The notes below the pieces were generated by a model. It had not been told where the DNA came from, ran no database searches, and was given only the letters and a program-made list of their open reading frames with translations. A stretch of DNA of 60,532 nucleotides from a virus: IMG/VR virus record IMGVR_UViG_3300037189_005898, positions 1 to 60,532 of that record, one strand, 5' to 3'. A program made the translations under genes and the position numbers. Shown in pieces: positions 5,072-38,400 of the stretch. Each line of letters starts with the position of its first letter. Within the stretch, counting starts at the first letter, position 1.

Positions 5072-5086
5072 AACTGTTTGACAGTT
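5072..5086. repeat. palindrome over the -35 element (possible operator)
   Basis: AACTGT-TTG-ACAGTT is a perfect 6-bp inverted repeat spanning the -35 hexamer of the following promoter. A further half-site ACTGTT occurs at 5111-5116, just after the -10. As RNA it would be a short hairpin followed by CTTTCGTTTT, so a weak terminator for the upstream operon is the alternative. Confidence 0.45.
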
Positions 5087-5106
5087 CTTTCGTTTTATCA
5101 TATAAT
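5078..5106 (+). promoter_or_regulatory. consensus sigma70-type promoter
   Basis: TTGACA (5078-5083), a 17-nt spacer and TATAAT (5101-5106): a perfect match to the bacterial housekeeping consensus. It lies in the 93-nt gap ahead of the MoxR-like gene and gives a leader of about 50 nt. This implies early or middle expression by host RNA polymerase. Confidence 0.85.
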
Positions 5107-5162: not shown

Positions 5163-6251
5163 ATGAGTGAAGTTTATAGTCGCCTAGTCGGCCCTAAGAG
5201 TGCAAAAAAATCTTTGCGCAAATCATTTAAAAGCAAGCGTCCAGTTTTCTTATGGGGTCCTCCAGGTATTGGTAAATCCGATATCATCAAGCAACTAGGC
5301 GAAGAACTAGAAGCCCATGTTATCGATGTTCGTTTAAGTTTGTGGGAACCTACTGATATTAAAGGTATTCCATATTTTGATAGCAACGACGGCACTATGC
5401 GTTGGGCTCCTCCTAGCGAACTTCCTAGTAAAGAGGAAGCAAAAAAACATAAACAGATTATTTTGTTCATGGACGAAATGAATGCTGCAGCACCTAGTGT
5501 ACAAGCTGCTGCATATCAATTAGTACTTAATCGTCGTGTTGGCACATATGAGTTACCTGACAATGTTGTAATGGTTGCTGCAGGCAATCGTGAAACTGAC
5601 AAAGGTGTAAGCTATCGTATGCCAGCACCATTAGCAAATCGTTTCTTGCATTTAGAAATGCAGGTTGATTGGGAAGATTGGCAAGAGTGGGCGGTACTTA
5701 ACAAAATCCATAAAGACGTTGTTGGCTATCTTACTTTTAGCAAAAAAGATCTTTATGATTTTGATCCTAAATCTAACAGCCGTGCGTTTGCAACACCGCG
5801 TACTTGGAGTTTTGTAAGTGAACTTCTTATTGATGACGACACCGACGAGAGTACATTAACTGATCTTACATCAGGTTCTATCGGCGAAGGTCTTGCTATT
5901 AAGTTTATGGCACATCGTAAACATGCTAGTAAAATGCCCGATCCAACAGATATTCTTAACGGCAAAGTTAAGAAGATGGACAATAAAGAAATTTCAGCAA
6001 TGTATTCATTAACTGTATCTCTGTGCTACGAACTTAAAGAAGCCTGCGACAAAGGTGCTAAAAACTGGAACGACCAAGTAAATAATTTCTTCCAGTTTAT
6101 TATGGATAACTTCGAAACCGAACTTGTTATTATGGGCACAAAACTTGCTCTAAGCACTTACAAGCTGCCATTAGATCCAGATGAGATCAAATGCTTCGAT
6201 GACTTCCATGCTAAATTTGGCAAGTATATTGCACAGGCAACTGAGAAGTAA
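5163..6251 (+). CDS. MoxR-type AAA+ ATPase
   Basis: 362 residues. Walker A GPPGIGKS at 32-39, Walker B IILFMDEMN at about 99-107 and sensor-1 region VVMVAAGNRE at about 135-144 place it in the MoxR/AAA_5 ATPases. In bacteria these act as chaperone-like remodelling ATPases paired with a von Willebrand A (VWA) protein, and here the next gene is exactly such a partner. The C-terminal third is helical, as expected for the lid region. AAGGAAAA precedes the ATG. It is driven by the perfect promoter at 5078 with an overlapping palindrome. The substrate is unknown. MoxR/VWA pairs are also known to me in T4-like marine phages. Confidence 0.85.
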   Translation: MSEVYSRLVGPKSAKKSLRKSFKSKRPVFLWGPPGIGKSDIIKQLGEELEAHVIDVRLSLWEPTDIKGIPYFDSNDGTMRWAPPSELPSKEEAKKHKQIILFMDEMNAAAPSVQAAAYQLVLNRRVGTYELPDNVVMVAAGNRETDKGVSYRMPAPLANRFLHLEMQVDWEDWQEWAVLNKIHKDVVGYLTFSKKDLYDFDPKSNSRAFATPRTWSFVSELLIDDDTDESTLTDLTSGSIGEGLAIKFMAHRKHASKMPDPTDILNGKVKKMDNKEISAMYSLTVSLCYELKEACDKGAKNWNDQVNNFFQFIMDNFETELVIMGTKLALSTYKLPLDPDEIKCFDDFHAKFGKYIAQATEK

Positions 6252-6268
6252 TTTAGATTATAAGCAAA

Positions 6269-6297
6269 TTGACACCGCCCCCGGGCGGTGTTATACT
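6269..6297 (+). promoter_or_regulatory. sigma70-type promoter for the metallopeptidase/VWA gene
   Basis: TTGACA (6269-6274), a 17-nt spacer and TATACT (6292-6297), five of six matches at the -10. It lies in the 74-nt gap after the MoxR gene, so the second gene of the pair has its own promoter. The spacer is filled by a GC-rich palindrome. Confidence 0.75.
6272..6291. repeat. GC-rich palindrome between -35 and -10
   Basis: ACACCGCCC-CC-GGGCGGTGT, 9-bp perfect arms. It is very GC-rich against AT-rich surroundings and fills the promoter spacer exactly. Most simply a repressor or activator operator; as RNA it could end MoxR transcription, but no T-run follows. Confidence 0.6.
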
Positions 6298-6325
6298 ATA
6301 TACATATTGTTACTTAGGAAAAATT

Positions 6326-7507
6326 ATGGCTCATGCAGATCCAATTATTGATAAAATTATCGTAGCTCGCGTAGGACTATTACTACGTCATCCGTTCTTT
6401 GGTAACATGGCTACTCGTTTAAAAATCGTAGAAGGCAGCGACTGGCTTAGTACCGCTGCAACAGACGGTCGAGCAATTTATTTTAGTCGTCCATTTTTTG
6501 AAAAACTTACAACTAAGCAAATTGAGTTTGTTATTGCGCATGAAATTATGCACAATATTTTTGATCATATGAGTCGTAGAGAAGGTCGTGATCCAAAAAT
6601 CTTTAACGTTGCTGCAGATTATTGCGTCAACGGTCAATTAGTTCGAGATAAGATCGGCGATACTATTCCAGAAATTAAGATGTTTCATAATCCTAAGTAT
6701 TATGGCTGGGGTGCAGAGCAAGTATACGACGATATATTCGAGGATATGGAAAACCAACAACTTGATGCGCTTGGACAATTAATCGACGAACATATCGATT
6801 GGGGTGAAAACGGCGATCAAAAACGTCCTTCATACACTAAAGAAGAACTTAAACAAATACGCGACGAAATACGTGATGCCACAATGCAGGCAGCACAGGC
6901 TGCAGGTGCAGGCAATGTTCCTGCTAGCGTAGCACGTATGATCAAAGACATGACTGAACCGAAGATGAATTGGCGTCAATTGATTCGTCAACAAATTCAA
7001 AGTACTATTAAAAATGATTATACCTTCATGCGTCCTAATCGTAAAGGTTGGCATATGAATGCCGTATTACCAGGACAACAGTTTCAAGAAACAATCGATA
7101 TCTGCGTTGGACTAGACATGTCTGGATCTATTGGCGACGAACAAGCTAGAGATTTTATTAGCGAAATCAAAGGTATCATGCAAGAATATAGAGATTTTAA
7201 TTTAAAACTATGGTGCTTTGATACACAAGTTTACAATGTTGCAGATTTTAACAGCTACAATGCAGATGAATTCGATAATTACGAAGCAATGGGCGGTGGC
7301 GGTACTGAGTTTGATGTAAACTGGGATTACATGAAAGAGCACAATATTACTCCTAAGAAATTTATCATGTTTACAGACGGTTATCCCTGGGGTAGCTGGG
7401 GTGACGAACTATACTGCGATACCTTGTTTATTATTCATGGCAACGATAAAATTGTTCCGCCCTTTGGTGAATATGCATACTATTCAAAACACGAAGAATT
7501 TGCATAA
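6326..7507 (+). CDS. VWA-like protein with zinc-metallopeptidase domain (MoxR partner)
   Basis: 393 residues from the ATG at 6326, preceded by TTAGGAAAAATT. The TTG 57 nt upstream in the same frame is the -35 of the promoter and not a credible start. The N-terminal domain has AHEIMHNIFDH, an HExxH zinc motif (72-76), as in DUF2201-type putative metallopeptidases. The C-terminal half is VWA-like with the MIDAS signature DMSGS (264-268), GGGTEF (324-329) and MFTDG (about 348-352). In the family this pairs with a MoxR ATPase, here the gene just upstream. It may act on protein complexes in the infected cell; the target is unknown. Its stop overlaps the next ATG. Confidence 0.8.
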   Translation: MAHADPIIDKIIVARVGLLLRHPFFGNMATRLKIVEGSDWLSTAATDGRAIYFSRPFFEKLTTKQIEFVIAHEIMHNIFDHMSRREGRDPKIFNVAADYCVNGQLVRDKIGDTIPEIKMFHNPKYYGWGAEQVYDDIFEDMENQQLDALGQLIDEHIDWGENGDQKRPSYTKEELKQIRDEIRDATMQAAQAAGAGNVPASVARMIKDMTEPKMNWRQLIRQQIQSTIKNDYTFMRPNRKGWHMNAVLPGQQFQETIDICVGLDMSGSIGDEQARDFISEIKGIMQEYRDFNLKLWCFDTQVYNVADFNSYNADEFDNYEAMGGGGTEFDVNWDYMKEHNITPKKFIMFTDGYPWGSWGDELYCDTLFIIHGNDKIVPPFGEYAYYSKHEEFA

Positions 7508-7847: not shown

Positions 7848-8093
7848 ATGACCGACTCTGTACAAACAGAAAATCCAACAAATGAGCAACCTGCTGCACC
7901 TGCACAACCTGCTTCAAATGAGCTAACTATTAATGATTTGAATGCGATGAAAACTATCATCGATATCGCCAGTTCAAGAGGTGCCTTTAAACCAAACGAA
8001 ATGATGGCTGTTGGACAAACTTATACCAAATTAGAATCATTCTTAGATTCAGTAGCAAAACAATCTGCCGCTGCACAAACACCAGCCCAATAA
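7848..8093 (+). CDS. small hypothetical protein
   Basis: 81 residues with a good ribosome-binding site (AAGGAG, 8 nt before the ATG). The first 25 residues are a flexible Pro/Ala/Gln-rich tail (ENPTNEQPAAPAQPASN). Residues 27-70 form a compact, probably helical domain (LTINDLNAMKTIIDIAS, then GAFKPNEMMAVGQTYTKLESFL), and the end is again Ala/Gln-rich. Low-complexity ends around a small helical domain suggest a protein-protein adaptor. I recall this small family in T4-like cyanophages without an assigned function. Confidence 0.6.
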   Translation: MTDSVQTENPTNEQPAAPAQPASNELTINDLNAMKTIIDIASSRGAFKPNEMMAVGQTYTKLESFLDSVAKQSAAAQTPAQ

Positions 8094-8106
8094 TAAGGAA
8101 AATTCC

Positions 8107-8757
8107 ATGGCTAACTTAAAACACGTAGGTCGTATTAAATCTACTGGAAAGCGTGTGGTTGTTGCTTATAGAACACTGCCTGGTGATGCATACTCAGCTT
8201 TGGTTATCCCAACAGAAGGGTTAACTGACAGCTACCACACTGCACTAATCGGAGCAGTTGAAAGTGCTGCTGGACAGGAAGCATACGAATTTGCAGAAGC
8301 AATGGATCGTGTGCAAACACCAGATGGTTATAATATGCTGCATGCGTTGCATCGATTAGGTAAGTTTATTAAAATTTCAACTAGTGATGTAGAGATGATT
8401 CCTGCACCAGGTGCGGCTGTTCTACTATCTGAATTAAATCAGATTATTGCAGAACAACGAGGTATAGCTATTGATGATTTGTCTATTAAACCTGCTGTAA
8501 AAGATGTACCAAGAACACGCGATCTCGGTGAACCAAGTGTTGCAGAAGCTGCTAACAAGCTAGTGCAAAACGATGTTACCAGGACAACATCAGCAAGTAT
8601 AAATTCAGACGAATCTGAAATAGTGGAACCAGGACCTAATGCTAGTCCCGATGTTGCTGCTAAATTTTATCGCAGTCAGGCAGATAAGTTAGCAAAACAA
8701 GCAGCACAATATCGACGTATGGCTGAAGACTTAGTTCCTATTAAAAAGAAAGCATAG
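8107..8757 (+). CDS. conserved hypothetical phage protein
   Basis: 216 residues. The N-terminal ~115 residues form a compact alpha/beta domain (ANLKHVGRIKSTGKRVVVAYRTLPGDA, then ESAAGQEAYEFAEAMDR). A linker rich in charged residues and Ser/Thr follows, and a C-terminal helix (AAKFYRSQADKLAKQAAQYRRMAEDL) is coiled-coil-like. AAGGAAAA lies ahead of the ATG. The layout suggests a DNA- or protein-binding accessory factor, but no defining motif is visible. It is 13 nt downstream of the previous gene and 8 nt from the next, so co-transcribed. Confidence 0.65.
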   Translation: MANLKHVGRIKSTGKRVVVAYRTLPGDAYSALVIPTEGLTDSYHTALIGAVESAAGQEAYEFAEAMDRVQTPDGYNMLHALHRLGKFIKISTSDVEMIPAPGAAVLLSELNQIIAEQRGIAIDDLSIKPAVKDVPRTRDLGEPSVAEAANKLVQNDVTRTTSASINSDESEIVEPGPNASPDVAAKFYRSQADKLAKQAAQYRRMAEDLVPIKKKA

Positions 8758-8765
8758 TCTTTATA

Positions 8766-9086
8766 GTGGCTAAATCGGGAAGAATCCTTCCCAAGGAAGT
8801 CATTGCACATTGGCCAGAAATATTCAGCGATATTCAGCTGAATGTGATGCCTATTAGGTATCTACATTCTGTTTTAGTGAACTTTAAAGATGGCAAAACT
8901 TGGGAAATAAAAATATCTGCACAGACCAAGAAAGAAGGTTGGGTTGCCTTTGAAAAATCCTTGTCTGACCTGTGCAGTACATACGAACCTAAAATTGATA
9001 ATATTGATTTTAAATTAGACATGGTTCTTTTAAAGAAACATGTAGAAGATGGCACAAGTAAATTCTTAAAAAAACGTAAATTATGA
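8766..9086 (+). CDS. small hypothetical protein (GTG start)
   Basis: 106 residues starting with GTG at 8766; no ATG gives a comparable frame and no clear Shine-Dalgarno is present, so expression may depend on coupling with the gene 8 nt upstream. It is basic and has the segment FKDGKTWEIKISAQTKKEGWVAFEKSL followed by a helical and Lys-rich tail. The last 4 nt overlap thyX (ATGA). It resembles small T4-like phage proteins of unknown function. Confidence 0.6.
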   Translation: MAKSGRILPKEVIAHWPEIFSDIQLNVMPIRYLHSVLVNFKDGKTWEIKISAQTKKEGWVAFEKSLSDLCSTYEPKIDNIDFKLDMVLLKKHVEDGTSKFLKKRKL

Positions 9087-9766
9087 AAGTAAATTTAGTA
9101 TCTTATTCTGCACCTACTACTGAATATCAGAATCAAGGAATTTATGATGCGCAGGAATTAATTGCATTCTGCGCAAGAGTAAGTAATCCATCGAATCAAT
9201 TCAATACAGAGACTTCGGAAAAATTAATCAGATATTTGATTAAACATGCACACTGGAGCCCTTTAGAAATGGTATCAGCTTGTATAGAAATTACCACTAC
9301 TAGAGATATTGCTAGACAGATTTTACGTCATCGAAGTTTTAGTTTTCAAGAATTTAGTCAACGCTATGCAGATCCAACTAAAGACTTAAATTTTGTAACA
9401 CGCGAAGCTCGATTACAAGATGAAAAGAACAGGCAAAATAGCATAGAATTAGATCCTGCTAATGATCAACATAGATTTATTGCTTATCAGTGGGAGCAAA
9501 TTCAAAATCGAGTTATTGAGACTGCACGTAGGGCATACGATGATGCAATTGCTGCAGGTATTGCTAAGGAACAAGCTAGAGCTGTGTTACCAGAAGGTTT
9601 TATTGAAAGTAAATTATACATGAATGGGACCTTACGTAGCTGGATACATTTTATTGAGTTACGTAGTGCTAACGGAACACAAAAGGAACATCAAGAAGTT
9701 GCAAAGGCGTGTGCTGAAGCTATTACTAAGATTTTTCCGTTGACAGCATCTCTGATTGAATCGTAA
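9083..9766 (+). CDS. thyX: flavin-dependent thymidylate synthase ThyX
   Basis: 227 residues. It makes dTMP from dUMP using FAD, NADPH and methylene-tetrahydrofolate, supplying thymine for phage DNA synthesis. The ThyX signature RHRX7S is present as RHRSFSFQEFS (82-92). The HWSPLEM segment (57-63) and a C-terminal LRSWIHFIELRSANGTQ stretch are also typical. Full length for the family. It overlaps the preceding gene by 4 nt. Its last 41 nt run antiparallel through the 3' end of the convergent glycosyltransferase-like gene, and an intrinsic terminator for this operon lies about 40 nt beyond the stop. Confidence 0.92.
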   Translation: MKVNLVSYSAPTTEYQNQGIYDAQELIAFCARVSNPSNQFNTETSEKLIRYLIKHAHWSPLEMVSACIEITTTRDIARQILRHRSFSFQEFSQRYADPTKDLNFVTREARLQDEKNRQNSIELDPANDQHRFIAYQWEQIQNRVIETARRAYDDAIAAGIAKEQARAVLPEGFIESKLYMNGTLRSWIHFIELRSANGTQKEHQEVAKACAEAITKIFPLTASLIES

Positions 9767-23424: not shown

Positions 23425-26400
23425 TTATGATCCTTGATCGAATGTGTTATGTGAATTATCAAATGTTATGTCACTGTTATCAAAAGTAGCATTAGTATTC
23501 ACAGATAATGAGTAATTTTCAATGCCGGTATACCACGCCCCAGGAGTTGCTTTTAAGAATTCTGCTATCTGACCAGTATCATCTATTATATTTACAGTAG
23601 AATCCCAATCTTTGCCTTTTCGTTGTACAACTGTTACAACGACATTTTCTTTTAGAGCAGTTGTTAATCTGATAGAATTATTAACTCCGTCTACAGAAAA
23701 ATCTGCATCAAACTGTACATCGCCGGCTGGACTATTTGGAGCTTGATTGACATTGTATACTTCATACGGTTGTTTTTGTAGTCTAATATTTGAAATAAAG
23801 AACTTCCAATTTGTTTTATCTTTTGCAAATGACGAAGAGCTGATATGATCTGTTGTACATTTATAATCATATCCGTTATAAGATACAATATCATTTATAA
23901 CGTAACTAGTTGTTTCGCTCCATATCGATATATCATATCCCCCAACAAATACTTCTATGTCATTTGATTGTCCAAATCCCGTAGGTATTACTGAAGTAAA
24001 TCCTGTTTGATAAGACCATATACTAGATGACTTAATTGGTTTAACATTCGTTGTTATAGTGTTAGATCCTGTGCTGACAATCTGTTGTGTATTAGTAGTA
24101 TCTGTGTACGGTATTGTTTCAGCCGTTCCAATGTCTTGTACATAGCTTCCGGATTTATGAATCTTAGAAACTCCAGTTCCTAAAACTCCTCTTCTTAATT
24201 GTCCTAAAACGTTGCCATCTAACGTAAAATATTCTATACGTTCTCCTCTGATTTCAACAATGCCAGGTTTATTTGCAGCAGGATTTGGAATATCAAAGTT
24301 ACTAGCGTCAACTACTGTGATTATTTTATCAGTAGCTCTAAGATCCGATGCTAGCTGTGTTCTCTTATTCAAACTTAATCTAGTATAACTAGTTCTATTC
24401 AGCATATCTTTAAACTGCATATAAGAAATACCTGACGTTATTATATTACTGCTAAATGTCAAAATAGTAATATTATCTGCAGTATTAGGGCTGACTGCTA
24501 GTTTTAAAGTTCTAAAATCAGAATTTAAAATATAATCTAAACTTGGAGTTAAAAGCTTTCCATTCTTAGTTACCCATACATAATTTTCATTTCGTACTGC
24601 ATCATCTAACTTTATTATTCCTCCAAAAATATTTTGATATTCAAAATATTCCTGTGTATCTGGTACTAGAGCCAATTTTGGATTCACATTTAGATCTTTA
24701 GTCGCCATTCCTAAAACATTATTTCTGTAGGAACTAATAATTTCGACAGTACTTGTATTATCATAAGGATGACTAAACTGAATATAAGGAGGTGTAAATC
24801 TGTTTGCAGGAGGAATGTAAAAATATCCTGCCTGTGTTTTAATGCTTATAATCATTGCTTGATCAACATATTTTAAATAGGTTGTTTCATACAACGTAAT
24901 TTGTATTCCGGCTACATCTAAAAGATAATCTACAGAATTTTTTAATATAACTCCGCCGACTATTACTGCAACATCTTCTGATCTCACTTTATATGGTGTG
25001 AACAGTCCCGGATCAACTGTATAAACTAATTGATTGTTTGCGATTGTAAAGTAACTATTTTTAGGTCTTGGTAATATTGTTTGATCTACACGAACAATCA
25101 TCGTTGTTTCGTTTGGTAAAGCATCTCCAACAATATTATCTAATGCATAAGTTAATGTACCATCAGTAGGAATTATCTGCTTACTAGTTATTGCAAAAGT
25201 CTGTGTGGCTCCGGCTACAAAGATATATGCGATTATTGATCCTACTGCAGGGGCATCGACTAATCTAAAGCCAATTCTATGTGCAGAATCATACGTATCA
25301 TCTGTTTCAAATGTTAAATTATCTACGGAATTTCCATCTACATACGTACCGGATGTGAAGGAACTTATCCATTTTGCCTGTGTTACAAATTCTTTTGTAT
25401 GTCCGTCTCCAACAAAATAATCAAAAACAAGAATGTCAGTTCCACTAAATCCAATGCTGTAAATCGACACTAATGTGTCAATATCTGGCAAGTTTACAAA
25501 AACAATAGTTTGATTTTTATAATCTACTATGTAATCAGTTGTTTCAGTTAAAATTGTAGTTACATCAGCAACTGTTGTTTTAACAATTACTGCTGACGAG
25601 CTATTAGGAATCTGTCCTATATTAAACTCAAATGTTTCCCCATCTGCTAGATATTTTTGAACTAAAATCTCTGCTGATCCACCGGACGGTTTATCAAAAA
25701 CTTTAATAGCTAACGCATCTACTACTTGTCCTGGAACAACTTCTTCCGGGAAATAGCTGGTCATTGGGGTTACAAATCCATCTCCGTCTATAGTAATGTC
25801 ATCCGCCAATAGACCCGATGCACTAGTATATGCCATGTTTCCGCCATCTATTTTGGTATCAAATGAGCTGGTTAATGGTTCTATTGATCCATCGCTGGTA
25901 CTTTGACGAATAATAAACTTATCAAAATCATTAACTACAAATGTACCAGGAATATCGACCTGTCGACTTTCTCCATCAGCAACTACAGTTAGCATTACAG
26001 CATCTGCATTTGTTTGATTCAATGTTCCATAATTTTCATCATCAATTCTTACAGGAGCTAAATTTGAACTTATGGTTAATGTCTCTCCTGTGTTTATTGG
26101 GTCTAATAATGTAACTACACCCACACCGGCTACAGACGTTTTAGGATTAATTGTTAAAGTTCTTTCAAATAAAACAGTTTCTGCGGAAACTACAGTGTCA
26201 TATAATACATGATCAAGTTCAAGAATGTTATTGTTTAAAATAGTACTAACTGTAGTCGAATAAGCGAAAAGAGTTAGATCAGTTCCTACTAAAGATACTT
26301 TGTCTTTTAATTGAATATTATCAATGCTATCTAACTGCAGCTTATTACTTCCTTTTGCATTATAGGTAATTAATACTGTTTCTCCTGTATCTGGAATTGG

Positions 26401-29400
26401 AGTATATGTAAACGTGAAAGATGTGCCAGCATCTACCGCACTGGTCAGCGACGAACTTAATGTTATTTGAGTTCCGCTTAATATTGTCATAGTTACATTA
26501 TCTAATATACCAATTGGGCCGCCAACTACGGTGCTTCCGCTAATTAACGACGAAGTACTTCTAAAAGATAGAACAGTGGCTCCTGCACTTACTGATGAGG
26601 TAGTTAAAACTGCAACTGATTTACTTTCTAGTGATTGTACTAGCGTAACTAACGTTGAATTAATAACCGTTTTAATTTCGCCGATAACTGTATTATATCC
26701 TGCGTTAGTTCGTATTAATTTCATTCCTGCATCTAGATCCATAGTAGAGTCTAACGCGACTAGAGTTTCATTGACCAACGAAATTGTACCGCCTGATGCG
26801 TATTGTGCAGTGTCAGTGCCAATGAGAGTTATACTATGATTTGTAGCAAATGTTACTGTATAAATTCCATTATAGTGACTATAACTTTGTAGAGAATTTA
26901 CAGTAGTTGCTATGTTTGAAATACTAATAATCTGATTTAAAGAAAATGGTATTTCTGATCTAGTAGCAAATGAAACTACTATCGAAGAGCCTGATCCAAT
27001 GACATTAGTAATAGCGATCCCTAATCCTTGAAATGTAGCACTGTATGGTAATAATATATTTGAAGAACAACTTACAGATGCAACAGGTGTTTGTTGTCTT
27101 ATATCAAACGTAAATTGTGTTTGTACACCGTCTCCTGCATAGGTTTCTGAAAAATATTCACTGTAGTAAATATTTAAATTTGTGCCTGTGGCGGGTAAGT
27201 AAGGCAAGTTAAAAGTATGTGTATCGGCATCGACTACTGTTATATAATCGGTAAAGGAACTGTCAGTACCATCCCACACATCACTGAACAATGACGATGA
27301 ATCCCAACCATAATTTGTTTCGAAGCCAAAACTATTAACAATCACTCCGCCGTAGTCTACACCAGACATTAGTTGTGCTAACTCTTTTCCTGGTTGTCCA
27401 GTTTCAGGAGTGTAATAATACTGAACTCTATCCGATGCATGTAACAATGACCAGTTTATCAAATAGCTTACTTTAATAACTGATCCTGCTGTGAAAGAAT
27501 TATCAAAAGTTATTAGTCCGGAGTAGCTAGTATAACCTAAACTATTTGAAGTCTTAACAGACAATGCATAATCATCTGAAATTACAGGAATGCCATTAAC
27601 TGTAACAGAATGAGTTCCTAATCTTATATCAGGTGCCCACGGCAAAGTATATTGTAATTTAGAAGCCGATGCTGTTATAGTTTCGATTTTTTCTAATTCT
27701 ATCAAAGAATATGTTTTTGAAAGTCTATCAAACTTAACTCCTACTGTTGTTTTTCTAACAACACCGTCGCCTATTACTGCGATTATCCTTGCTTTACGTC
27801 CGCCATCAGTAACGCCGCCATTTAGTACAACAGTAGGTGCACTAAGATATCCAGACCCAGATGTTAATAGAACGACTGTTCTAATAGATCCATTAGTGAT
27901 AAACGTTTTAGCTGTTGCGCCGGCACCTGAACCGCTTTCGATAATAACTTCGGGTGCTGTAATATATCCGCTGCCGGCATCGACAATCCTTAATTCAATA
28001 ACTTTATAAGAATGATTGTCATTCCAAAATGCCCAAGGATACACAGAATCGATAATTGCATTATCAACCGTTACGTTATCATTACTATAACCTGTTAAAA
28101 TCGGAACAATTGCACCGGATTGATATTGTGGAGGCAAATCAAAATCTGTTACAGCAGTAGATCCTAAATCTAAATTACTGTAATTGTCTACATACTCTCT
28201 AATTTTTGTCCGATACGGTTTTACTTCTGAAATATAACTTTCAAAATCTGAAAGATTATCAGGCTGATAGTTAACCGGCTGTTTAAGAGGTCCTACTAAA
28301 TGATCTGCTTTAATAAAGCTAGTTTTGAAAATCCAGTCGACACTTGTTTGTTCACTAATAGCATATCGTACACTGGAGAAAAATAAATTTAAATAAGCTT
28401 GTCTTAAATCGTCAATTAAAATATCATTTTTTATTGCGTCTAAAATAATTCTTAATTCTTGATTAGCAGAATTATCAAAATTTAAATCATCATACAATGC
28501 ACCGTCATACCCATAAACCGTATCAGTAAGGTTGTACAGAATAGAATTAAACTGTATTGTGCCCTTTTCAACTGCTATTGGTTTATAGCGTTGTGTCCAA
28601 TCAATACTTTCCGATTCGGCATACTTTTCTAAAATCATCCAAGTACCGTTATTTGTGGTTTTAACCTTAACTAGTTCACCTATCTTGGAATTAATTCCAT
28701 ACAGTCCTGTAAATGTGTTTACAGAATAATCTACAACTGTATATTGATTATAATTAGTATCATACCAATCAGCATAACTCCAATAAGGGCGAACATCGTA
28801 ACTCTGTGTTTGTATTCTTGACCAAACACGAGTTGTGAGATCGAATGTGTATATACTCCAATAACCTTGAGATCCGCTATCGCTGTGAACTAATACACTA
28901 TAACTTCTAATACCCAACATGGTATTTTCTTCATTATATCCTTGGCCAGGATCGACAATCGTTACTCCGATCAACTGACCGAATGCATTTATTTGTGCTT
29001 TTAAAATTGCACCTTCGCCGTCGCCTGATACTGTAATGTACGGTGCATTTATGTAACCCGATCCTGCACTTACGATTGTTACTCCAGTAATTCTGCCTTC
29101 TGTGATTACAGCCACTAACGAAGGTAAAGAGAAATTGCCAACATTTACAAAACGTAAATCATAATCGGTATCTTTAACTATGTCATACAATCCAGTAAGA
29201 TCCGATGGCGGTAATTCATATAAATCCAATGCGGATATATTTTTATTTGTAGTTATTTGATAGGAGATTAATGTTCTATTAACTTCTTCAATAAACTGCT
29301 TTAACGCCTCGGATCGATTAACAAACATGCCTTGACGAGGCCTGAATTCTATACCATACTTTAATTTAGGCGGTAACTTTACATCCGGCACCACACGGCC

Positions 29401-32400
29401 ATTTTGATCTTTTCCGCACAGACTATCAAACCATTTTTGTTCAATTAACTCAGGTAGGACTGTATTTTTATCATTGTTAATAATTGCATATTGACGATGT
29501 ACTAATGCATGTTCAGGATTGTCTATAGTCCAATATTCAACAGACAAGACCATATTTTTATCATTTAATAAGGGTTTGACATTTGCTAGACTGAAACTAT
29601 TAGAACCTGTCAATGCTAAAAATTTATATCCGGCACCTCTTGGATTTCCGATAAGATTAGCAGCGTCGCTAGCTGAGAGAGATCGATTCTTAAGATTAGG
29701 TACAATTGTTTTATTTTTTACCCAGAAATAATATGTTGTTTTATAAGTTTTACTAACATTATTATAACTCTGAGTGCTAGAGTAAACTGTATCATCATAC
29801 AGACTTTGGCCGCTGATATTTTGTGAAAGTCCTGAAACAGTATCTGCTAGCTTGTTCCACTGACTAGGAGTATAGGACGATGAAACCCATTCATATATAT
29901 CGATACTAGCACCGGGAAATAATAATGCCCAGGAATTGTTTCTATAAACTACATCATTGTCGTGCGCATCAATAAATTTTGCAGTTCGTAAATCCCACCA
30001 TAGTTGTCCGACTTGGGCATCAGTCCATGCTTGACCTTCGCTAACATTTACTGTTGCGTTACCTATCGAATATATTGCAGGATCATAGAAAGACTTATAT
30101 CTTATTTCTTGTTCTGCTGGTCCAGGAATTTTTCCTTGCATTGGATCGATAATATCAATATAGGATACTAACGAGCTATTTGTTTTATCGTATATTAATG
30201 CACGTTTAAATTTAGTTAAATTGACTTTAGGAATTTCATGATGTAGTATAGTCCAACTATATGCATTAGATTTTTTACCGTAACCAAATACTCTGCCAGC
30301 AATAAGATTATTAACAGTAGCAGATGGGGCTCCAATTAAAATATTGTTTGAACCAACTGCAAAACCATCACCATATTCACTGTTTAATTCTGCAAGATCT
30401 CTTAATGTCTCGCCATATATAAAGTTTAAATTATACCTGTCATACACATCTATACGTCCATTGTTTCTAACAATAGATTTAAATTTAGTAGAATTTCCAT
30501 CAAATATTGTATTACCAGAATCAAATATTTCAAGAGTTTCTATATCGGAGTTCTGACTATAAACAACCATAGTATTGCTGCCGTTCATCCAAGCTACTCC
30601 GGCACCGAACAGTCCATTAACTTGAGGATTAATATTTTCTACTTCTTGATAAAAATTAAAAGTGCCAGTATCATTATAATATAAATCTACTTGTCCTTGA
30701 TTGCTATATTTTTTTAACTTATAAGGAGATCCTATAGCAACCCATATGCCATCTTCGGATACACTTAATCCTTTACTAAACCCGTATTCGCCTCCTACAA
30801 TAGGAGACTGAATCAAAGTCCAAGCTGTTCCATTATTTTGATATAAATTAACTCTACCAACTACTTCCGAATTATAAGTCCCGTCAAACGGCACACCAAT
30901 AGCACCAACTGCTAAAACATTACCCAAAACTGCAGATGATAAACTACTACCAAATGCTTTTTGACCATTTGGAGCAGAAATATAACTGCTAGTGTTATAA
31001 TTCCATTGAACTATTGAAAAATTTAAATTGCCCGAAGGTATAGAGGAAGCTGCAGAAGAAATAACTATAGCTGTAGAATTTACAACCGAAGTCACAGTTT
31101 GATTGTTTGTAAATCCTGTACCAGTTATACTCATACCTGGTGCTATGCCCGATGTTGAAGATAAGGTCACTACACTACCTAATACTGTTGTAGCAACTGC
31201 TCCTGATCCTGTTCCTGAAAAACTTACAAATGGTTTTTCAATATATCCGCCGCCGGGATTTGTAACCGTAAATGAAGATATTCCAACTTCAATAGCAAAT
31301 CGAACATTTGTTCCGGTGCCACCAGTAACAATGTTTGTTAAGGTCGGAGCTACTGTATACTTTCCAGCATTAACTATAGACACTCCTAAAACAGCACCAA
31401 TGTTACCTTTTTGAATGTTTGTGTTAATAGCAGTTACTCTTAAAATTGCAGGTTGCGTTGACGATCCACCTGTAACTGTTAATAAATCGCCTACTAAGTA
31501 GCCAGATCCTGCTTGAATAAGTCTAGCACTTGCAACACCAATTGTACATGTAGCGGTAGCTTGCACACCTCCCGAATCAGTAGGAGCGGCAATAATCACA
31601 ATAGGATTAGTTAAAAATCCGCTACCAGGAGAATCTACATTGATACCTACTATACCATTATTACTACTGCCATTTGGATTATAAGATGCAGTAGCTTGCA
31701 CTAACTGCTGATATTTGATTTCGTAAACTCGACCGATTCCTGAATTAAAGCCCTTAGCGCCAACTAAAAGATTATAACTAACAAAATTGTTAGATTGTGT
31801 AGTCTGTTTGAATACTAAACTAGATCCAAATAGTTCTCCTGCAGTAGGGGATGGACTTAAAATTGTGTCTACTAGAGTGAAAATGTTATTTGCATCTTTC
31901 TTATATAAAGATACTGCACCCTGACCAGCTAATCCTGAATTAGTCCCTGCTAAAATATCTACGGCCTTATAATAAGTTTTTTGTATAGTAGCTGCATTAC
32001 TTGCAGTCGGTGATCCAATAGCAAGCCATGCTCCATCAGGAGACATAGCTAATACTTCTGCCAGTTGTACAAATTCATTAGAATTATTTCCAAATACATC
32101 AGACTTGGATATCTCCGGAGCATCGATAGTGTCTCGTTGTATCCACGACGAAGAAGGACTAGACTTATGATAAATGAATGTTTGTCCTGTCTTAGTCGAA
32201 ATAGCAGCAAGACTTCCATCTGAAGTAATTGCTATTTCTCTTCCAAACCCTAATCCTGCTTTAGGTAAACTAAATTTAATTTCAGAGTCTGCATAAACTG
32301 TATCATTTTGCCATGTAGACCAAATGCCTGATCCATTATCGTCGGTCCATAATAACTCTCCGCTCTTAATTTCTTGCGGTATCGAAGAATTAGCAGTATC

Positions 32401-35400
32401 AATACTACTTGCTCTTTGAGAATTGAATCTAAAAATTACTATATCATTTAAGCCTTCATACGGGACTAATGGTGCTGTAGTTAATGTAGTTGAAATAATA
32501 ATAGTCACAGGGTTCATATCTGTGATTTTATAAAATCCATCAAATCCACCAGACTCACGTATACCAACATAATCGCCTGCTCTTAGTTCGTGATTATGAC
32601 TAAAGGTAATATTAAGTTTATTAGAGGAATATGTTAATTCTGTTACTTTATTTTTTGTGTTTGTAAATCTATAAACATTCCAACTCGGGCCTTCAAATCC
32701 GCACCAAATATAATCGCCGTCGACTAATGTAGCAATATCAATGTCAATAATATTATCTATTGATGCAATCGATGCTGAAACTTCGCCTGGACGTACATAA
32801 CCGGCTGATCGTAAGTAAGGACGATAGTTAGATATCGTCGGCCAAGGATTGCTGGAATAGTTTAAAGGTTTTAAATATATCTCGTTAGGACTTAGTCGAT
32901 TGACAAAATCACTATGCTCTTCATCTAATCTAGACACTAACTCAAATCCTTGAGGATTACGCTTATTAAATTCTTCTTCATCTAAAACAAATTCTATTTC
33001 TTCAAACCCTTCTGCAGATCCATATTGACCTACACGAATTGCCCACTCTTCATAGAATTGTAAACTGTCAGCATTCTCGGAATTTAAAACACCAAATAAT
33101 TTATTAAAAGCATTCTGCGTGCCTTTATCATAAATCATTCCCTGATAAAACTTAAATTCACCTACACTATCTTGAATTAAATTTTCAAGATATTGACGTT
33201 TTTGATAACCAATAAGATGCTGTGCTAACGACTGTTGATCTGCATCAAAATTGTCACTATCTAAACTGTAAAAATCTGTAAATTGTGTAGCCTTATACGA
33301 CCAGTTAGGAATAAGTTTAGATGCTGGAGCACTTGATAATTTAATCCAATTAATTACACCATCGGGTTCGGCTATCTTAAAGACATCGACACCAGGGACA
33401 AATCTATTAGCTGAATAGTAGTACTGTTGATAAAGGACTGTATCTCCTAGTGCATAATCTTGCCAGGCTTCCCAATTTTTAACTATTGCTTGATCTACAA
33501 TAAATCCAGGTACATCAAAACCACCGTACCATTCAGAACTTACGTATCCAGAGATCTTAATTCTTTCCTGTCTGTATCCTGTTTCAGGATTATAAATTGT
33601 GTCATTAAACATTGTAACATTATCTAATAACAAAATTTGTTCTTGCTGTATTAAGTAAAAAGTTGCGGCATATATGCCATCATTGTTATTAGCTCGATAG
33701 CTTACAACATTGCCATTTCTATATGAGTCTATGAACTGAGGAGAAATAGGAGTACCGTCCACTTTAAAAATAGAATAACTATTAAATGGATCCGTTACAG
33801 ACTCTACTACTGCTAAGTCTGCAAGGAAGGTAATTTGTCCTGCTGCAGGACTAAGACTTATTACCGCACTTCCTACTGTGTCTAAACCTGGTAAGTTTTC
33901 ATACAGATTAGTGTTAAAAAATCCTACAAAAGATGCCTGTGTTACTGTCCCAATATTATTCTCTGTTAAATTAATGACATATGGCCCATGACCGGTGACA
34001 GATTGCACTAGAGCACCTGCTTCAACACCTGGTCCAGTAACTAACATTCCTATATAAACACCTAATACATCGTCGGCATATAATCTGTAATCTCCTTCTT
34101 CGCCACTAACTGATAAGTTGTTTACTGGAACCGATGAAGTGGCTGGTATTTTTTGTAAAGCTTGATAATATTCTCCGTTATATCGAACTATTTCATTATA
34201 CTCTATGTCAATATTAGGAGTCCACTCGGTCCATTTATCCTGCACCGAAGACCAATTTTGTGTTGTCCAAAATAAAAATTCTTTAGCACTAGTTTCCCAA
34301 TTACAAATATCTGGAAGATTTGGATTAAAGTCTTCAAAAATAAATCCTTGATCTTTTAAATATTCACCATGCCCTAATAAAAAGTCAACAACATCTTGTA
34401 TTTTTTCTAGTTTAGTTCCGTAAGGAAGTACTAGCGATTCTTTTCTGTTCCATTTACTTCTAAAATTAGAATTAACACCGCCATTAATTGGGAGAGATTT
34501 TAAAAGAACATATCCTGTTGGATCAAATGAGGTAACTAAAATCTGAGAAGAAATCGTTCTATAAAATTGCCTATTATACTGTACAACTTGGCCAGGATAA
34601 TAACTTTCTCCGGCTGTCCAATTAACATAACTTTCAGATATACCGCCAATGTTAACTACTATTCCAGTATCGTAATATGAATAGTAATTAAAATAAGGTT
34701 GTACCTTACTATAACCATTAATTACAAATCCATCTGCTAATCTGGTTATAATAACTCCACTATAAATTATTCTGTTAATCGGACTAGACTTATTAAGATG
34801 AAGATTATAGTTTTCTTTAGGTACAAATACACTATTACTTGCACTTAGCGGAGTTCTTGAATCAAGTATAATATCAAACTTTTCTTTACTTGTAAATGCT
34901 CCTAATCTATAACTTAACTGACAATTTATATTTGTTAAATCTGTTTTATAAGCAGCATACGATTCAAGAGTATCATCTAAGACATAGTTGACAATAAAAT
35001 TAATTAAACCTGCAGTTTGTACATTCACTGATGATGAATAAACACTAGATAAAGCTAACGTACTTGGTTGAATTCGCAACATTGTGTCTGCATAAACTAA
35101 TTGTCCGGCTGGATTACGAGTAACACGTGATCTGTCTAGAAAAATTCCTATAGTTTTAGAAGGCTGCAATAACGTTGACGCTAACAATACTGTATAAGGA
35201 TAATAACTACTTCTACGCCATGCTGTTTCTACTGGACTTATATCGCCAAACACGTAACTTCCAGAAGTAGCATCAGTTATAGTACCTAATGCTAAACCTG
35301 CACTATAAGGACTTAGTAGTTCACCGTTTTCGTCAACTGGAATATTAGTTTTCAAAATAGGACGAATAAATTTTGTACGAACCGAGGTAGTCGATCCAGG

Positions 35401-38400
35401 TGCTCTAACAATACCTTCCGACAAGTCATTCCATAAAATTAAATTGTTACTGGTATAGGGTGCTGGACCATACACAGATGTCCACCATGTTGGCTCACTT
35501 GTAAATCCTAGCATCTCCCAAGGAGTTTCATTAGGATGATCTGTATCAAACATCCAACGATAGATCCCTCGCCAAAATCCAGGTGTTGCTTCCCCATTAG
35601 GGGCATAATGCCCTGCATAGTTATATGTAAATGAATTTGATGTATCGAAGCTAAATGGTGTTGTAAAATCTGAATTAGTTAGCCCGATCCATTCATAAAA
35701 ATATGGCGACAACGTACTGTTAAATTCAGATAAACTGTAATCTGTTGTTCTATTATATCCAGGAATAAAATCATAAACATCAAAAATTTCAGTATTATAA
35801 GATATCTTGATGTTATTAAAAATTCTCTTTTCTAATTCAAGTAATAAATCGTCTCTATAATCGCCGTACGTTAATGTGAGACTACCATCGTGTCCTTGTA
35901 TTAATTCTCTTGGAGTCAACAATGTGTTATCTAAGAGTATTTTAGGTTCGTATGCTGGCCAAAATCCTAACTTAGTCGGAGTCTCTGGAACAAACGATCC
36001 GTTAGTGCTATCATACTCATATGTTGTAAGTACGTCACCGTTAGCTAACGGAGATGTATCTAACATTATAAAATTTGAGTTATCACTATCAAAAATATAG
36101 TCAGTGTTATACAATAACTGTGTGCCATTTCGATATATTAATACTGATTTATAAGACAATACATCTAAGCTAAATGGATCGGTTAATGGATACGTTTTAA
36201 TTCTGTAATCTAGAACAGGAATATCACTTACAATAGCTGCACCATAAGGCACCATGTCACTGAAATAATATGGTCCGGTCTTAGGTTTATTCTCGTTAAT
36301 TTTTCTTAAAATATAATCGACTGATTCAACAACCGATAAATCCTCTGATAACCCAGTAGCAGCATTAATAAACGCTCTTTTAAAGGCAACATAGTCATTA
36401 CGAGATTTTTCTATAGCTCTAATTACATTATTAGTTTTATTAGTGATATGATATAAAGATAGACTTGCAGGACCACTGTGTTGAACAAATTTAGTTCCAT
36501 ACTTACTAATCTGTCCTAAATCTCGTAAATTACCGAAACCAGGATATGATCCTGAAAAATTTGGTACATTTTCTACGATCGACTCTACATGATCTAAAAC
36601 TTCACCTAGTGTAAAAGTAGTAATCTCATTGTTCAGGGGATTATTTTGTAAGTTCAATGGGATTTCATAGAATCCATTCTTGTTGATAGGTTGTGCTGCA
36701 TACGCTTTAATTGTTAATACATCGGCGGTTGTTACGTCAGTTAATAGTTCTACATATTTGTAAATTACACCGTCGCTTATTGACCATTCAGTGCTTTCTA
36801 ATCTAATACCATTAACATAAACTTTGACTACTAAGTCATCAAGATCGTTAATATTATCAAAAATGTCGATATCGAAGTTATTTGTAATTTCTGAATTTTT
36901 GTAGATTCTTACAGCACCCTGTGTCATTGTAACACTATTTGTTATCCATCCATTTACAAACACAGAAGCTGTTGTTTGTATCTGTTTTAAATAACCAATA
37001 CTAATATCAACTGTAACTATATCACCGCTTAGTTTATACACAAATGTGTCAGAAACTAGATTAAAGTTGAAGACAATGTCTCCGATATTGTTTATATTTT
37101 TATATAATAAAGGAAATCCTAAACTAGGATCATTTGAGCTCGAGCCCACTGCATAAGAAAATACTGCAGATCCTTTAAACGTAGATCCTGTATATATTGT
37201 TGTATCCGAAAAACTAATTCCATCGGAATTGAAAATATCAAATAAAGGCTGTTGATTTGCTTTAGTCTTTTGTTGTGCATAAATCCAGTCTGTACCATTG
37301 TACCAATAAGTGATCGATTGATTCTTTATTCCGCTTTTTACAATTACAGAATCATTCTCAGATGGCGTTGAATGTAACGCTAGATGTATTTGTTGAACAC
37401 CATTGACCGAAACAAACTGCACTTCATATACATTATCTTTAACAAACGGATCTGGATCTGCAGTAAAAATTACCAAATATCCTTGAACTAAATCTACACC
37501 ATCAATATTGTATCCCAAGCTACCTTCTATAATAGAAAATGCATCAGTAGTAAAATTATCAATAACGTCAACATCAACGACCGACTTATTTCCAAAATTA
37601 TAAAGTTGTAAATTTGATTCGAATTCGATAATAGGTCTAACAGCACGAGCAGTCTGATCTAAGCTTGGAACATTGCCATTTAATGCTGCGCTTACTTCAA
37701 TAACATCTTTATGGAACCAACGATTGTATCGACTCCATGGATTCTTATCTTGACTACTTCTATTAATAGTAATATAATCTAAGGTTCCTGCATATGAGCT
37801 AGCACTACTAAAAGGCAAAGAGTCGAACAGATCAGAATCAAATAAAATAGTAGTATCAGTAGTATAAGGTGCAATTATTTCTAGTGATGATTCTTCAGTT
37901 AATACGATTCCTGTACCAACACCTTCAACATAGTATTGCCCTTTAGAATAAGTTTCAGGTGTTATGTTACCTATAAACTTAATTTTCATGCCATTGCTTA
38001 ACGTAACTCCGTTAGGTAATGTGTATGATGTTTTGCCTAACAGATCCTTTTCAACATCAAGATATGTGTTTTCTTCAATAGAAAGAATTTCAAAAACTCC
38101 ACTGGCATCTAAATCTGTATCACTAAAATAATAAAGCAAACTAGGTGCATCAGCAGGTACTGTAAAAGTAATCGTTCCTTGAAAAACTTTATTTCCATCA
38201 AGGCCCGGAGTTTGATACAAATATTCAACATCATTACTACGAACTGTTGCAATAGTAAAAGGATTACCAATGCTATCGATTTCAAACACATAAGTTTGGC
38301 CTCGATAAAGTTTAATTGTAGGGTTAGGAACTAATGCATCAGAAGAAAACATCCACTGGAAATTTGTACCTTCATTTTCTATACTGACTTTAATTGTGCT

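Follow-up and report, generated by a model that had tools for sequence, protein, structure and literature searches.

In the bacterial NorQ-NorD system, the available text of the relevant study describes a finger of the VWA protein that enters a MoxR-type hexamer (PMC13036017). NorQ-NorD and other bacterial MoxR-VWA pairs unite a MoxR-class ATPase and a VWA protein that has a MIDAS, as does the phage gene pair considered here. The phage partner differs in possessing an HExxH domain ahead of the VWA domain, and the word 'peptidase' is absent from the NorQ-NorD paper. Among phages, a MoxR protein paired with a metallopeptidase-vWA protein was noted in group 2.2 jumbo phages, and a role in virion assembly was proposed, in the accessible portions of Iyer et al. 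(2021; PMC7824862). The gene pair and domain layout in that work are the same as in the locus described below, whereas those portions do not mention promoters, a hairpin or a distribution of the N4 type as presented here. The gp24 and gp25 genes of phage N4 are included in the published core-gene table of the N4-like phages (Schitoviridae), as far as the available parts of the source extend (PMC7650795), and these genes and their Schitoviridae homologues belong to the same ATPase and DUF2201 families in the same gene order (PMC7650795, PMC2784036). The MoxR-partner pair itself is already known, therefore, from jumbo phages and from the N4 core.

The MoxR ATPase gene and its DUF2201 partner

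The window, which is the entire viral DNA stretch that was analyzed, spans 60,532 bases and includes T4-type baseplate, portal and late-sigma genes. A MoxR-family AAA+ ATPase of 362 aa is encoded on the plus strand at 5163..6251 as judged by Pfam, PHROG and conserved motifs. The open reading frame exceeded the Pfam cut-offs for AAA and AAA_3 (30.2 vs. 27 bits for the latter) and matched PHROG 1297 at 4e-100. The Walker A motif is located at 5256-5279 (+) and the Walker B DE residues at 5472-5477 (+). Residues K38 in Walker A, D104, E105, N142, R160 and R213 were present in 64/64 close and 23/23 diverse proteins, where proteins under a set length were omitted from this and the other motif-conservation counts (104/105 and 88/101 retained). 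The protein possesses several hallmarks of a MoxR ATPase, namely an AAA_3 match, intact Walker A and Walker B motifs, sensor 1 and the arginines. The bpMoxR family that marks the MoxR-VWA-beta-propeller ternary conflict system (PF20030) scored below its cut-off (20.4 vs. 27 bits).

The partner gene was listed as an open reading frame at 6269-7507 (+) with a TTG start codon at 6269. This start was rejected as the TTG forms the first bases of a -35 hexamer, TTGACA. Instead, translation likely begins at the ATG at 6326, which is positioned shortly 3′ of AGGAAAAATT, to produce a DUF2201 protein of 393 aa (6326..7507, +) that comprises a metallopeptidase-type domain at residues ~1-150 and a VWA domain at residues ~253-390, assigned from Pfam, PHROG, residues and predicted folds. 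Both DUF2201 family cut-offs were exceeded within this one protein: DUF2201_N (PF13203, 'putative metallopeptidase') at 3e-40 with 138.9 bits vs. a cut-off of 23.2, and DUF2201 (PF09967, 'VWA-like') at 2e-13 with 50.8 vs. 26.4 bits. The match to PHROG 1314 was 5e-109. The label of that group, 'HNH endonuclease', also is a frequent database name for DUF2201 partners (H5, H14, H17, H25 and others). The label was rejected as the Pfam assignment is DUF2201 and the protein carries HExxH and MIDAS motifs.

The HExxH motif is HEIMH (H72, E73, H76; 6539..6553, +), followed by conserved H81, N94, A96, D98 and N102. The DxSxS signature of the MIDAS (D264, S266, S268; 7115..7129, +) was recognized by motif and residue conservation, and the site is completed by T327 (7304-7306, +) and D351 (7376-7378, +). 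H72, H76, D98, N102, Y134 and the five MIDAS residues were retained in 24/24 diverse phage proteins, and E73 and H81 in 23/24; in close proteins all of these residues were present in 79/79. These family matches and near-invariant residues uphold two proposals of the first-pass annotation, that the genes form a MoxR-VWA pair and that the second protein bears an HExxH motif. Peptidase activity of the partner is predicted from the motif and family, for which the Pfam label is 'putative'.

Predicted folds of the partner

The AlphaFold2 model of the full-length partner had a mean pLDDT of 80 and a pTM of 0.53, and the placement of the domains relative to each other is uncertain due to the latter value. 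Residues 253-389 matched VWA domains with Z 13.0 and rmsd 2.4 over 137 aligned positions. No selecase-type fold was among the matches listed for the full-length protein, where the VWA domain filled the listing, and the N-domain therefore was predicted alone (pLDDT 83, pTM 0.82). Selecase and abylysin zincins occupied six of the best seven rows for this domain with Z 5.0-5.4, which is below Z 8, and a profile match to selecase MJ1213 was obtained with E 9e-4. Further HExxH proteins also were among the fold matches of the N-domain. No Foldseek match with the N-domain reached E 0.001. The partner thus weakly resembles the minimal metallopeptidases selecase, jannalysin and abylysin (PDB 4qhf-4qhj, 4jix, 4jiu) in profile and fold around HExxH. 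In contrast to the phage partner, those chains are ~105-112 residues long and lack a VWA domain. Overall, the models weakly support a zincin-like N-domain.

Distribution and genomic neighborhood

The partner was matched in 764 of 50,697 phage records and the ATPase in 790. Both proteins were present in 25/25 diverse records; as these records were picked because they match either the ATPase or the partner, the count addresses how constantly the two occur together rather than how common they are. The ATPase was found in 76/80 loci of window-type contigs. The two genes are on the same strand within ~3 kb in the annotated tables except in phages FFH2 and Ro1 in which they are divergent and separated by 3.6 and 4.6 kb, respectively. 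In two plasmid copies, the ATPase and one hypothetical gene precede the partner. A genome scan with N4 gp25 yielded one locus, a homologue with 68% identity to gp25 on a contig labeled as an 'archaeon' MAG (L221, JANQNF010000027.1) which is probably a mis-binned N4-like phage.

The first-pass annotation had argued for an early takeover role. In a reading of this type, the pair would be a protease for host takeover or counter-defense that cleaves a host target early. The host-type promoters described below and a weak fold match of the N-domain to the antirestriction protein ArdC (Z 4.7) are compatible with this idea. However, near-invariant residues and constant pairing in phages of many hosts are unlike an arms-race gene, and a search of PADLOC defense families produced weak AAA matches for the ATPase and none for the partner. 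Pairing in all 25 records and the near-invariant motifs instead look like a conserved phage function, not a patchy counter-defense gene. The specific takeover or counter-defense role is therefore unsupported by these data and is considered improbable.

Two conserved genes downstream of the pair (7848..8757, +), which provide context and are outside the proposed machine, encode proteins of 81 aa (phrog_13789) and 216 aa (phrog_15894). The latter gene also is found near the pair in phages CBB, XaC1, Vibrio 2.275.O and Atu_ph07. In the window, a ThyX gene (9083-9766) is situated downstream of the phrog_15894 gene (8107-8757), and CBB and XaC1 display a similar order with an unrelated ThyA in place of ThyX. 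The pair might, alternatively, be a chaperone that activates enzymes of nucleotide metabolism, for example thymidylate synthase, or loads cofactors into them. A synthase of either unrelated type, ThyX or ThyA, is located within 10 kb in 12/25 records (11 by Pfam and V12 by annotation only) as well as in the window, and in N4, N38, RG-2014 and Meara a dCTP deaminase gene is found immediately or shortly after the partner. Nevertheless, the synthase is 12-107 kb distant in 11/25 records and none was found in two (LIT1 and D474); the near cases come from a small number of lineages, and genes for nucleotide metabolism and replication are in any case clustered. Thymidylate synthase was rejected as a dedicated partner as a rule, being near in only 12/25 records, and an activating role for nucleotide enzymes in general is very improbable.

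Each gene has its own sigma70-type promoter

The MoxR gene is preceded by a sigma70-type promoter, TTGACA-17-TATAAT, at 5078..5106 (+) with 12/12 consensus matches. The partner gene has a second such promoter, TTGACA-17-TATACT, at 6269..6297 (+) with 11/12 matches and TG before the -10. The latter conforms to a sigma70 extended -10 promoter in possessing TTGACA, a 17-bp spacer and TGn ahead of a TATAAT-type -10. The window includes four sites with at least 11/12 matches where 40 shuffles had 3.4 on average, and the number alone was rejected as evidence as it is not above that in shuffled sequence. Two of these sites fall within a 5148-aa open reading frame, and the promoters of the pair are the only intergenic ones. 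Despite the chance-level count, the two promoters are considered real because they are conserved across loci: omitting loci with too little upstream sequence, a promoter of at least 11/12 was retained upstream of the ATPase in 64/64 loci and upstream of the partner in 74/77, window included in each case, whereas nine neighboring genes had such a promoter in zero or one locus each. With a threshold of at least 10/12, the partner promoter was present in 80/81 loci with a spacer of 17 bp in all 80. The earlier suggestion that each gene has its own strong host-type promoter is therefore borne out.

Similar promoters recur further afield. When gaps of 600 bases or more were left out, 18/30 unique MoxR-partner gaps in distant loci included a promoter of at least 11/12 vs. 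0.2% of shuffles, and 22/30 included one of at least 10/12 vs. 2.2%. Phages CR8, W70 and 2L372D have promoters of 10-12/12 ahead of both genes. In PA5oct, XaC1 and N4, none that reached 8/12 was detected ahead of the ATPase or the partner, which counts against the chaperone-peptidase reading proposed below.

Four sites that match the T4-type late promoter, TATAAATA, were detected in the window, none near the MoxR-partner pair. Their distances to the predicted gene starts downstream are 29, 31, 36 and 13 bases. The tail and baseplate gene blocks contain three of them, and the fourth is unconvincing as it is too near the start codon. The 5148-aa open reading frame (23425-38871, minus strand) is inside the baseplate/tail block. 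The TATAAATA sequence also was absent within 150 nt upstream of the pair in 13 other phages.

A hairpin fills the spacer of the partner promoter

The spacer of the partner promoter is filled by a hairpin with an 8-bp stem and a 4-nt loop (6272..6291, +) that is 20 nt past the stop codon of the MoxR gene. Its outer pairs join ACA, the second half of the -35 hexamer, to the TGT that precedes the -10. All eight stem pairs were formed in 78/80 loci, and 99.6% of cells paired across 35 distinct sequences. Both sides of the stem were changed in 52 cells compared to 16 in shuffles, and five of the eight pairs were affected. These shuffles do not preserve relatedness, whereas a slide control does, and shifting the stem partner in that control destroyed the pairing. 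As the outermost ACA/TGT pairs follow from the promoter consensus alone, the evidence for the hairpin resides in the inner five pairs. In one locus (L049), the -35 is altered to TTGACG and the base pair is retained. UNCG loops constitute a class of stable RNA tetraloop, and the hairpin loop is UNCG in 59/80 loci. The idea that the spacer is a DNA operator with symmetry is disfavored because changes in the stem bases maintain pairing and because the loops are UNCG in this proportion of loci.

Between the two genes are found both a gene-end hairpin, a feature of intrinsic terminators, and a promoter of the sigma70 extended -10 type. The spacer hairpin is a stable stem-loop situated where the upstream gene ends, as expected of an intrinsic terminator. 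However, the window clade is unlike a separate terminator and promoter as both share 29 bases and a canonical U-tract is absent: three of 80 loci had at least five T in the eight bases after the stem and 77 did not, with four T in 76/80. On this basis, the hairpin of the window clade was rejected as a canonical terminator. Pausing, processing or 3′-end stability are possible roles for the fused hairpin besides termination.

The combined pattern was not confined to the partner gene. At least 119 matches in at least 118 loci were recovered from viral contigs, of which at least 89 pair at seven or eight positions; among the matches listed, 61 of these precede the partner and 28 were unassigned to it, including one (L116) on a contig that ends directly after a MoxR gene. 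Inspection of sequences revealed other sites that precede clamp-loader-, gp32-type, lipoprotein- and MoxR-like genes as read without a family search, including clamp-loader-like (L110, L137, L174, L189, L213) and gp32-like genes (L131, L154, L161, L164). With sites near contig ends left out, a same-strand stop codon was located within 60 nt upstream at 77/78 hairpin sites compared to 16/28 non-hairpin sites among the matches listed, and at 25/26 hairpin sites among the matches listed when those of the partner were excluded. In Raoultella phage Ro1, a promoter with a spacer hairpin (L091, from 207 on the minus strand; 10/12 matches and 8/8 pairs) directly follows the MoxR stop codon; here, it precedes a hypothetical gene and the partner gene is located elsewhere.

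The data provide good support for the promoter-embedded hairpin as a new cis-element. It was not found in a limited search of the literature, which included the available parts of PMC1524935, PMC5587285 and PMC2988021. It is proposed tentatively, at a little below an even chance, that in large freshwater-type phages this ~29-base combination of promoter and tetraloop hairpin ends or protects one transcript and starts the next, thereby decoupling the doses of the partners, and has been reused elsewhere.

Terminators between the two genes in other phages

A terminator after the ATPase gene was detected by a strict test in 10/17 phages vs. 1.9% of shuffles, and was apparent by eye in Atu_ph07 and W70. 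No terminator was found in the MoxR-partner gap in N4, N38, V12, D474 and Slicko01, and N4 also is unlike the window in having no strong sigma70 promoter. The arrangement varies in distant contigs, where hairpin and promoter are separate (for example, L299), abutting (L334, L336, L339) or overlapping (L322, L324), and in phage EC22.5-2 the -10 is within the 3′ arm of the terminator. The two elements are fused in the clade of the window. In view of the gap terminators and promoters in distant phages, the two genes often appear to be transcriptionally insulated, a feature which was not found in the literature covered by the limited search and may be new.

Virion data and the assembly hypothesis

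Following Iyer et al. (2021), the pair may be a virion assembly or maturation machine that chaperones tail or head assembly and in which the peptidase processes structural proteins. This explanation accords with the location of the pair beside sheath/tube or other structural genes in RaK2, CBB and XaC1. By contrast, N4 gp24/gp25 are outside the structural block and the roseophage pair also is apart from structural genes, and the sigma70-type promoters of the window and the lack of TATAAATA near the pair run counter to an assembly role.

The first-pass annotation had set late-only expression, together with presence in purified virions as a structural part, against an early role, and data from relatives point to virion presence of the ATPase and not of the partner. 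In PA5oct, the ATPase is flagged by ESI-MS/MS and the partner is unflagged. The available part of the phAPEC6 virion list includes an ATPase, gp265c (49.52 kDa, six peptides). The MoxR protein of the relative EC22.5-2 computes to 49.50 kDa and its neighbors agree in mass with the sheath, the tube-type proteins and the thymidylate synthase of the phAPEC6 list. Based on mass and gene order, gp265c is inferred to be the MoxR ATPase. The partner (54.11 kDa in EC22.5-2) was not seen in the available phAPEC6 virion rows, and neither protein was seen in the available rows of the CBB virion table. The RaK2 paper contained no match to the gene names searched for. As the phAPEC6 list also has thymidylate synthase, the ATPase may have been co-purified. 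Thus, the virion data point both ways on a structural role, and an assembly machine is a serious but unlikely explanation for the pair.

Proposed function

With somewhat better than even confidence, the pair is viewed as a chaperone-peptidase, made early or in the middle phase, in which a MoxR ring and a VWA/zincin-like adaptor remodel a conserved complex. By analogy with NorQ, the AAA+ protein would form a hexameric ring, the VWA/MIDAS domain of the partner would dock both on this ring and on the target, and the N-terminal zincin-like domain then would clip or release a segment of the target. Host sigma70 RNA polymerase would transcribe each gene separately; with separate sigma70 promoters, the machine would be made early or in mid-infection with its amounts set independently, and its expression probably precedes the late phase. 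The complex to be remodeled may consist of phage enzymes of replication or nucleotide metabolism, of the RNA polymerase of the host, or of a precursor of the virion.

This pair ranks with the more widely distributed of the enzyme modules in large phages that lack an explanation, and a genetically tractable copy is available in coliphage N4. The host-type promoters point to the early or middle phase, contrary to virion assembly which is the only published mechanism that was found. The hairpin within the promoter is a candidate dual signal that would be missed as a unit when promoter and terminator finders are run separately, and if the element does both terminate and initiate transcription, it would represent a novel type of fused regulatory element.
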